DNA of 64,000 nt from Flavobacterium sp. 140616W15 (GTDB lineage Bacteria; Bacteroidota; Bacteroidia; Flavobacteriales; Flavobacteriaceae). Below are positions 8,464 through 15,972 of this stretch, one piece after another. Position numbers and translations under genes: made by a program. The stretch lies in NCBI RefSeq assembly GCF_003668995.1, contig NZ_CP033068.1, positions 2,356,001 to 2,420,000 on the forward strand, given 5' to 3'. A model generated the notes under the pieces. The model worked only from the letters and a program-made list of their open reading frames with translations. It did no database searches and had not been told where the DNA came from. The first letter of the stretch is position 1; every line of letters begins with the position of its first letter.

Positions 8464-9053
8464 TTAATTAACCTCTACCTCAAAAGATTCTGTATATGTA
8501 ATGGAAGTTTTTTCTTTATCATTAAATTTATAATTAACAACTGTTTCTATTGTATTAATTCCCTTTTTAATTAATACTTCTTTTACTTCAATGCCTGTCT
8601 GAGATGTTTTTTTAATGTTCGTTTAGCTTTTGTATTACTTACATTTTCAATCTTTAAAGCACGTTTAGCATTAGGTATATTTGCTATTAAATAGTGATAT
8701 TTTAAGGTGTCTCCAACTTTTAAATATTGATTAACACCTTCTTTAAGCCGTCTTTTGTTTGCTATTTTATTTTGATAGGTTTCTATTAATGCTTGCCCTT
8801 TAAAATTTTCGACATTTCCTTTTTCATCAAAAAGAATAGTAAAAGCTTGCTTACCAGAATCAGCGTATAATGTGTAACGCATAATTTTTCCTGATGGAAA
8901 ATTATCAATCCTTTCTTCAACGAGCTCATTTCCTTTCTCGTTATTGTGAACTAGTTTGTCATCAAAATAAGCTTTATCATCATTAATATAAAAACTCAAG
9001 GCGATGAAACCTAGTATCAGAGAGAACACTATTATTATATATTTCTTTTTCAT
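8464..9053 (-). CDS. Small membrane-anchored protein, paralogue of the next gene; possible immunity protein (apparent frameshift)
   Basis: One hydrophobic N-terminal helix (about 5-22: IIIVFSLILGFIALSFYI) followed by an extracytoplasmic domain. Residues 60-196 align with the neighbouring protein at 9103-9857 (shared DSGK, DEKG, VGDTLKY, LANLPN-like and EVLIKKGIN-like stretches). The frame breaks in a T7 run (8607-8613). One extra base restores a C-terminus that continues K-T-S-Q-T-G-I-E-V and ends ESFEVEVN, like the paralogue's ITFEVNVN. That gives about 196 residues rather than 156. It lacks the MORN-like middle of its paralogue. Its role is unknown. Its position downstream of an orphan toxin-like gene suggests immunity. 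Confidence 0.6.
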
Positions 9054-14246: not shown

Positions 14247-15972
14247 ATGGAACAATTTGTAGTATCGGCTCGTAAATATCGCCCGCAGACATTTAAAGAT
14301 GTTGTGGGACAAAAAGCGATTACCAACACTTTACTAAATGCCATAGAAAGTAACCACCTTGCTTCGGCACTATTATTTACAGGACCTCGTGGAGTTGGTA
14401 AAACAACTTGTGCACGTATTCTTGCACGAAAAATAAACCAGCCCGGTTATGATGATCCTAATGAAGATTTTGCTTTTAATGTTTTTGAACTTGATGCTGC
14501 TTCTAACAACTCTGTAGATGATATTCGTAACTTGATTGATCAGGTTCGAATCCCTCCACAAACAGGACAGTATAAAGTATATATTATTGACGAGGTGCAT
14601 ATGTTGTCATCGGCCGCTTTTAATGCTTTTTTGAAAACATTAGAAGAACCGCCTAAACATGCCATCTTTATATTGGCAACAACTGAGAAACATAAAATCA
14701 TTCCAACGATTTTATCTCGTTGTCAAATTTTTGATTTCAAAAGAATTACCGTTAAAGATGCCAAAGAACACCTAGCTGAAGTGGCAACAAGTCAAGGTGT
14801 TGTTTACGAAGACGATGCGTTACATATCATTGCGCAAAAAGCGGATGGTGCAATGCGTGATGCTTTGTCTATTTTTGACCGAGTTGTTTCTTATTGTGGT
14901 ACCAATTTAACACGTCAGGCTGTTACCGAAAACTTAAACGTTTTAGATTACGAAACTTACATTTCTATCACTGATTTTATCCTTGAAAATAAAATCCCTG
15001 AATTATTAATCGCTTACAATGACATCCTTGCCAAAGGCTTTGATGGCCATCATTTTATTGCTGGTTTAGCATCGCATTTTAGAGATTTATTGGTTAGCAA
15101 AACTCCTTCTACTTTATCTCTTCTTGAAGTTGGTGAACAGGCTCAACAAATGTATGGGATACAGTCTCAAAAAGCGAGTCAGGAATTTTTACTAAAAGGA
15201 ATTGAAATTGCTAATGATTGTGATTTAAAATATAAGTTAAGTCAGAATCAGCGACTTTTGGTTGAACTTAGTTTGATGCAATTGGCCTCTATCAACTTTG
15301 ATGGAGAAAAAAAAAGTTGAGCAATACATAATTCCGCCTACTTATTATAGAAATCCTACTTTCTCTATCACAGAAGTTAAAGCTCCTGTCGAAAAGAAAG
15401 AAGCACCTCTAGCAACGCATAATTCAACTCCAGATACTCAAAAACCTGAAACTGAAGCTCCAGAAAAAGTAGCTGAAGCTAAACCAGTAATACCAAATAT
15501 TACAAAGCCAGGTGTTTCAGCATTTTCTTTATCAAGTATTCGTAAGAAAAAAGAATTAGAGGCTGCTAATAAATCTTATGTAAAGCCAACAACTCATTTA
15601 CCTACTGAGGATTTTACCGAAACAGAAATGTTACTACAATGGAATAAGTATGCACAACGTTTAGGCGAGAAAGGTTTTAAGATAATGGAATCATTATTAC
15701 TTATAAACGATCCTGTTTTAAACGGCACTTCTATTTCTATCGAACTACCTAATGAAGGCTCTAAGCTTGATTTTGAAAAAGAACTTAATGGCTTATTAGG
15801 ACATTTAAGAGGACATTTGCATAATCACGATATTACTATTAATATTATTGTAAATGAGAGTTTTGAATTCAAAAGAAGTCTTAACGATCAGGATCGCTAT
15901 AATAGGTTATTAGAAATAAATCCAAACATCGAACTTTTAAGAACAACATTTGGATTAGATTTACATACTTAA
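14247..15972 (+). CDS. dnaX: DNA polymerase III gamma/tau subunit, reading frame broken at an A9 run (possible programmed slippage)
   Basis: Clamp-loader ATPase. Walker A GPRGVGKTT (46-54), Walker B/DEVH at IIDEVHML (113-120), sensor-1 LATTEKHK and the arginine-finger region LSRCQ are all present. The usual four-Cys zinc module after Walker A is absent and is replaced by NQPGYDDPNEDF. Frame 0 runs about 357 residues to DGEKKS and a TGA directly after A9 (15307-15315). The +1 frame continues with KKKVEQYIIPPTYY for about 220 residues with a Pro/Glu-rich linker and a tau-like C-terminal domain ending LDLHT. The full tau would be about 574 residues. The short product would correspond to gamma, as made by slippage in Thermus dnaX. 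A sequence error is the alternative. Confidence 0.9.
15307..15315 (+). promoter_or_regulatory. A9 slippery run in dnaX
   Basis: Nine adenines followed by GTTGAG. In frame 0 a TGA follows immediately; the -1 frame also stops within six codons; only the +1 frame (loss of one A or gain of two) continues into the tau C-terminus. Runs of nine A are known sites of RNA polymerase slippage. Confidence 0.5.

Follow-up and report, generated by a model that had tools for sequence, protein, structure and literature searches.

Transcriptional slippage in the dnaX gene of Thermus thermophilus was reportedly described by Larsen in 2000. In Thermus, the slippage takes place on a run of nine adenines (A9; PMC1088944, in the part of that paper that is available). 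In E. coli, gamma and tau also come from one dnaX gene, and there it is the shift that yields gamma, with an upstream Shine-Dalgarno sequence and a stem-loop (available parts of PMC5009743 and PMC3711429). A third group comprises the 17 split dnaX genes that Antonov 2013 obtained from GeneTack, all of them -1 and nine of them with A10, for which transcriptional realignment was predicted; Flavobacterium may be among the A10 species of that set (PMC3711429, as far as its available text goes). What gamma does in E. coli was disputed for a long time, and it is now tied to resistance to UV and to mutagenesis by Pol IV; in Caulobacter gamma is essential and made by proteolysis (both according to the available part of PMC5009743).

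We analysed a window of 64,000 nucleotides from Flavobacterium sp. 140616W15 (contig NZ_CP033068.1, positions 2,356,001 to 2,420,000), in which dnaX is written as two open reading frames that meet at an A9 run (Table 1). This split is confirmed. Frame 0 reads GGA GAA AAA AAA AGT TGA at the hinge, and the three frames remain open for 1, 218 and 4 codons past the run. The sequence-only reading of this DNA had described a gamma-sized frame 0 closed by TGA one codon after nine adenines and a +1 frame with a tau-like C-terminus of about 220 residues, and both descriptions were borne out by the open reading frames and by profile matches. In the NCBIfam model PRK14971 (gamma/tau, 614 positions), residues 1-354 of the first part align to positions 2-368 (606.5 bits) and residues 26-219 of the tail to positions 418-613 (78.1 bits), each half alone being below the curated whole-protein cut-off of 685. 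The first part also matches TIGR02397 dnaX_nterm with 378.5 bits, above that model's cut-off of 250. With the third frame closed as well, a transcript in either non-tau frame would be translated into gamma.

Table 1. Features of the split dnaX locus, in window coordinates.
Feature	Position	Strand	Basis
dnaX frame-0 ORF from its ATG, gamma-sized, domains I-III, 357 aa (357 codons)	14247..15320	+	ORF reading; TIGR02397 dnaX_nterm, PRK14971 (part), DNA_pol3_delta2, DNAX_ATPase_lid
A9 run, proposed slippage site	15307..15315	+	Read directly from the window sequence; comparison with relatives (A10 in 139/145 closest genes)
tau C-terminal part, +1 frame, 218 codons past the run, stop TAA 15970-15972	15316..15972	+	ORF; PRK14971; relatives; dN/dS
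TGA closing frame 0 one codon past the run (gamma terminator)	15318..15320	+	Sequence
TAA closing the third frame four codons past the run	15329..15331	+	Sequence

The tail has a dN/dS of 0.13-0.24 in ten pairwise comparisons with relatives, while the gamma part has 0.016-0.071, and to judge from these ratios the tail is under purifying selection. Together with the PRK14971 match, this indicates that it is the tau part and not junk. A Pfam scan of the window's tail reported no family. Protein databases list the Flavobacterium tau tail as a separate entry, called gamma/tau or hypothetical protein depending on the record, with Pfam PF28557. The AlphaFold model of the tail has a mean pLDDT of 70.2 and a pTM of 0.42, and a Foldseek search with it returned nothing at E<=0.001. 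The top rows were chains of the SirA/DnaA domain I complex (4tps, 7.6e-3) and Vibrio DnaB/DciA (8a3v), and domain V of E. coli tau came at rank 5 (2aya, E 0.077, TM 0.21 by query); these model-based rows are suggestive only.

The locus resembles dnaX of Thermus thermophilus in having a run of at least nine adenines past the gamma domains, with tau and gamma as the expected products and nearby stops in the non-tau frames (at 1 and 4 codons in the window). It differs in that tau lies in frame 0 in Thermus, whereas in the window and in most of its closest relatives gamma occupies frame 0 and tau would be reached by a slip. It also resembles the split genes of Antonov 2013, which have two adjacent open reading frames and produce tau only through recoding, but the genes of that set are all -1 in the available text (PMC3711429), in contrast to the A9 with tau at +1 in the window and to the -1, +1 and uninterrupted genes that share the conserved run across the class. 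The dnaX of the window thus belongs to a known kind, but its run length and its direction are unusual.

To place the locus we read 318 dnaX loci from the genus, order, class and phylum of the window, which gave 286 unique genes after the removal of 32 duplicates and 283 usable ones after three were dropped at contig ends. They combine best-scoring matches with regions picked by hand: 36 genes of the order chosen for their mix of split and fused genes (those with tau in the frame of gamma), 18 split-looking and 20 fused genes of the class, the latter picked by open-frame length alone, 20 genes from elsewhere in the phylum, and fused or divergent genes of the genus. Given this sampling, the shares of split and fused genes are not estimates. 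A run of A9 to A12 was found in the linker past DnaX domain III in 269 of the 283 genes (16 A9, 235 A10, 16 A11 and 2 A12). Such runs are confined to this region: there are 270 runs of at least nine adenines in 118,860 nt of linker windows, whereas the same genes have none in their gamma code (273,951 nt) or tau C-terminus (84,698 nt). Among the 20 fused genes of the class that were picked on length alone, 18 have A9-A11. The sampled dnaX genes encode KKK at 61 other places, none of them by A9; a lysine-rich peptide as the true cause of the run was therefore rejected.

At the family level, with tallies that mostly rest on one to few genes each, all 14 tabulated families of the order show the run. 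Elsewhere in the class, 28 of the 30 families sampled have it, and in the rest of the phylum 9 of the 18 sampled do. Within the order, one family (f4) had no dnaX match, and another with a tiny genome (f16) is represented by a single gene, L189, that lacks the run and is outside the 14. L189, from a genome of 0.3 Mb (G051), is an endosymbiont-like dnaX with no run of at least nine adenines, no long tail in any frame and a T11 near the same place. It is counted among the 14 genes lacking the run and was placed in no type, as it has neither run nor long tail. Four members of the class (L244, L250 and L294 from family f47, and L276 from family f62) have a continuous tau and no A-run.

Among the 145 genes with at least 82% identity over the gamma domains (including the window's own, and hereafter the closest genes), which also take in a few other genera, e.g., Winogradskyella, Hyunsoonleella, Confluentibacter and Myroides, the run is A10 in 139, A9 in three and A11 in three. 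The layout is split in 132 of them (129 with tau at -1 and three at +1) and fused in 13, and 127 combine A10 with tau at -1. The sequence-only reading had proposed that Flavobacteria make the short form by default, which is correct for the layout of the split majority and not for the 13 fused genes. The same pattern is found in each of the sets from which these counts derive. Of 29 relatives from the same genus, 28 have A10 with tau at -1 and one is fused with A10. A set of 80 named loci has 69 A10 and two A11 genes split at -1, eight fused A10 genes and a single A9 gene split at +1, that of Flavobacterium sp. YO12 (L042), which is in the same state as the window. A further 55 loci, which overlap with these 80 and were later cleared of duplicates, comprise 43 A10 genes split at -1, nine A10 and two A11 fused genes, and one A10 gene split at +1.

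An uninterrupted gene with no long A-run, which the sequence-only reading had named as an observation that would speak against it, did not turn up in the genus: of the 128 genus genomes with a match, seven look fused (by an open frame of at least 560 aa, the only criterion used, and with some genes partial), and all seven retain A10 or A11. Beyond the genus such genes do exist, namely the 13 of 283 in more distant families that are fused and lack the run. The proposal of a candidate programmed slippage, with the A-run as the hinge between gamma and tau, is nonetheless supported by the conservation of the run across Flavobacterium and far beyond.

In contrast to the run, the frame of tau is not conserved. 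Of the 269 genes with a run, 179 have tau at -1, nine have it at +1 and 81 have it in gamma's own frame, the last sharing the Thermus layout with an uninterrupted tau. The run itself is found in all three codon phases (215, 30 and 24 genes), starts 1 to 289 nt beyond the aligned end of the gamma domains and is followed by G, T or C. Ten families mix split and fused genes (f1, f7, f11, f20, f26, f48, f56, f68, f74 and f86), and one (f2) has split genes of both directions. On a FastTree phylogeny of 282 gamma tips, the minimum number of changes is at least 39 for polarity, at least 26 for phase and 9 for the presence of the run, a count that could reach 13 at most because only 13 tips lack it; this is a quick tree, its related tips are not independent, and some of the changes within the genus rest on metagenome bins. 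These comparisons suggest that selection has probably preserved the run in most of the class Bacteroidia and in some of the remaining phylum, through tens of changes in phase, position and polarity.

Stops are also placed close to the run. Both wrong frames stop within six codons past it in 241 of the 269 genes (14-19% at control positions). This is the case for 72 of 81 fused genes with a run (controls 13.7% and 15.4%) and for 169 of 188 split ones (17.1% and 19.4%), and it extends outside the closest group, with 59 of 68 fused and 40 of 56 split genes. The 13 fused genes that lack the run gave none in this test, but the contrast is weak and adds little because the distance was measured from an arbitrary point, the end of the alignment, and the controls were low (5% and 8%). 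Hence, whatever frame holds tau, the other two would usually yield a gamma-sized protein.

These patterns are what a switch based on transcriptional slippage would produce, and we consider it probable that the dnaX A-run is such a switch, giving two protein sizes. The RNA polymerase would slip on the run and make mRNAs with fewer or more adenines; those in one frame would be translated into full tau (domains I-V), and those in the other two would meet a stop a few codons on and yield gamma (domains I-III). In the window, the faithful A9 transcript would encode gamma, and a transcript one A shorter or two A longer would encode tau. In most Flavobacterium, which have A10, one added A would give tau. 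We infer that the slip occurs in RNA synthesis, with some efficiency, and that both proteins are made. Selection would then hold the run and the nearby stops but not the polarity, as both products would still be made, so that tau may sit in any frame. The 14 of 283 genes that lack the run count against this explanation.

The nine adenines of the window may differ from the true length of its run. In this alternative, which can hold together with transcriptional slippage, the gene is truly split, but its actual run is A10 and is read as A9 through a local error of one base or as a culture variant; tau would then be at -1. We see the chances as even. A single lost base would explain the A9, since the relatives carry A10: the norm of A10 is found in both of the nearest relatives read (L034 and L144), and of 398 genomes of the genus two, the window's own and one other (G370), have exactly this A9 site pattern. 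The window also contains other broken genes. The sequence-only reading had set dnaX apart from these, on the ground that it did not fit their pattern of one missing base, a distinction that fails now that the usual state is known to be A10 with tau at -1, of which A9 is exactly one base short. On the other hand, A9 with tau at +1 is found in two other assemblies (L042 and L274), and the window's genome has 56 A10 and 390 A9 runs, against 57 and 386 in one relative (G312) and 70 and 375 in another (G004). Its counts also resemble those of 14 other genomes of the genus, so a general loss of bases in the long A-runs of this assembly was rejected.

A rival mechanism is programmed -1 ribosomal frameshifting at A_AAA_AAG. 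It would resemble that of E. coli dnaX with the roles of the products exchanged, the short form being the default and the long one needing the shift, and it is unlikely as the general explanation. It has several observations in its favour. Nearly all of the closest genes split at -1 (127 of 129) carry the heptamer in frame, a likeness to E. coli dnaX, and tau is apparently made by ribosomal frameshifting in a few bacteria (Atkins 2016, available part of PMC5009743). Of the 145 closest genes, 137 have a 4-mer like a Shine-Dalgarno sequence in the 20 nt upstream, against 67 of 580 control windows, although in the genus it doubles as code for a conserved Gly-Glu; outside the closest group it is more weakly enriched, with 16 of 56 split genes (controls 32 of 224) and 21 of 68 fused ones (31 of 272). 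Downstream folding gave mean z-scores of -0.29, -0.60 and -0.58 in three sets of 40, 56 and 50 genes, with -0.18, 0.08 and -0.59 at controls 200 nt further on. The second set, the split genes outside the closest group, folds slightly more strongly than its control (z<-2 in 12% against 4%), but the first, the 40 sampled genes of the closest group, is near it. These signs suggest that ribosomal shifting may contribute in places. However, the heptamer is present in just 13 of the 50 genes split at -1 outside the closest group, leaving 37 without it, and in none of the nine split at +1, which it is unable to serve. The run is close to ten adenines whatever its phase. In the window, frame 0 has A_AAA_AGT in place of the heptamer. 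In contrast to E. coli, no strong stem-loop is evident here, and the short product is that of frame 0, so that a shift would give tau. Slippage on the A-run is favoured over a ribosomal shift of the E. coli type because it accounts for all frame states at once, and the use of both shift directions for one gene is a mark of transcriptional realignment by the criterion of Antonov 2013 (PMC3711429, available text).

It is very unlikely that the tail is produced by re-initiation as a separate protein and not as tau. The three A9 genes do have an ATG in the tail frame 6 nt ahead of the run, and a start codon, GTG and TTG included, is found within 60 nt from the start of the run or upstream in 9 of the 132 split genes of the closest group and in 18 of the 56 outside it. 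Yet no ATG in the tail frame occurs up to 60 nt past the start of the run in 128 of the 132 closest split genes, which makes a separate start unlikely in this group, nor in 52 of the 56 others, and the fused relatives code for a single protein. Lastly, a mere sequencing or assembly error in a truly continuous gene has next to no chance of being the explanation, and a pure assembly artefact is ruled out as the cause of the split because the layout recurs in many separately assembled genomes, with 132 of the 145 closest genes split, even though relatives' open reading frames are broken in the window in 1 of 21 (G312) and 1 of 20 (G004) cases against 0 of 25 in each reverse test, and one-base gaps at runs of at least five bases, the dnaX run included, amount to nine bases lost and none gained in the window relative to G312 (two lost and two gained relative to G004). 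Elsewhere in the window, on the minus strand, two open reading frames that are continuous in a relative fall in two frames (8467-9053 and 7-2072).

If the dnaX A-run is indeed a transcriptional slippage switch, then selection acts on the existence of two DnaX sizes and not on which of them is read directly, making the run an element that is fixed in function and free in frame. The repeated change of polarity around a retained run suggests that selection maintains both products in a large group, and the importance of gamma to a whole class would then have strong evolutionary support. The split dnaX genes now filed as fragments or hypothetical proteins would be intact, a warning for annotation that an intact replication gene can appear broken or misassembled, and the site would offer a natural system in which to measure RNA polymerase slippage. 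The slippage-type dnaX is already known as a kind; its breadth across the class and its frame turnover appear to be new, as far as our searches go, since among the matches listed for open-licence papers we found no description of dnaX slippage in Bacteroidota that spans the class or changes polarity. Finally, the comparison uncovered five metagenome bins labelled Chitinophaga, Rhizobium, Sphingobacterium and Bdellovibrio (L066, L070, L072, L075 and L079) that carry a Flavobacterium-like dnaX with 90-92% identity, which suggests that their labels are wrong.
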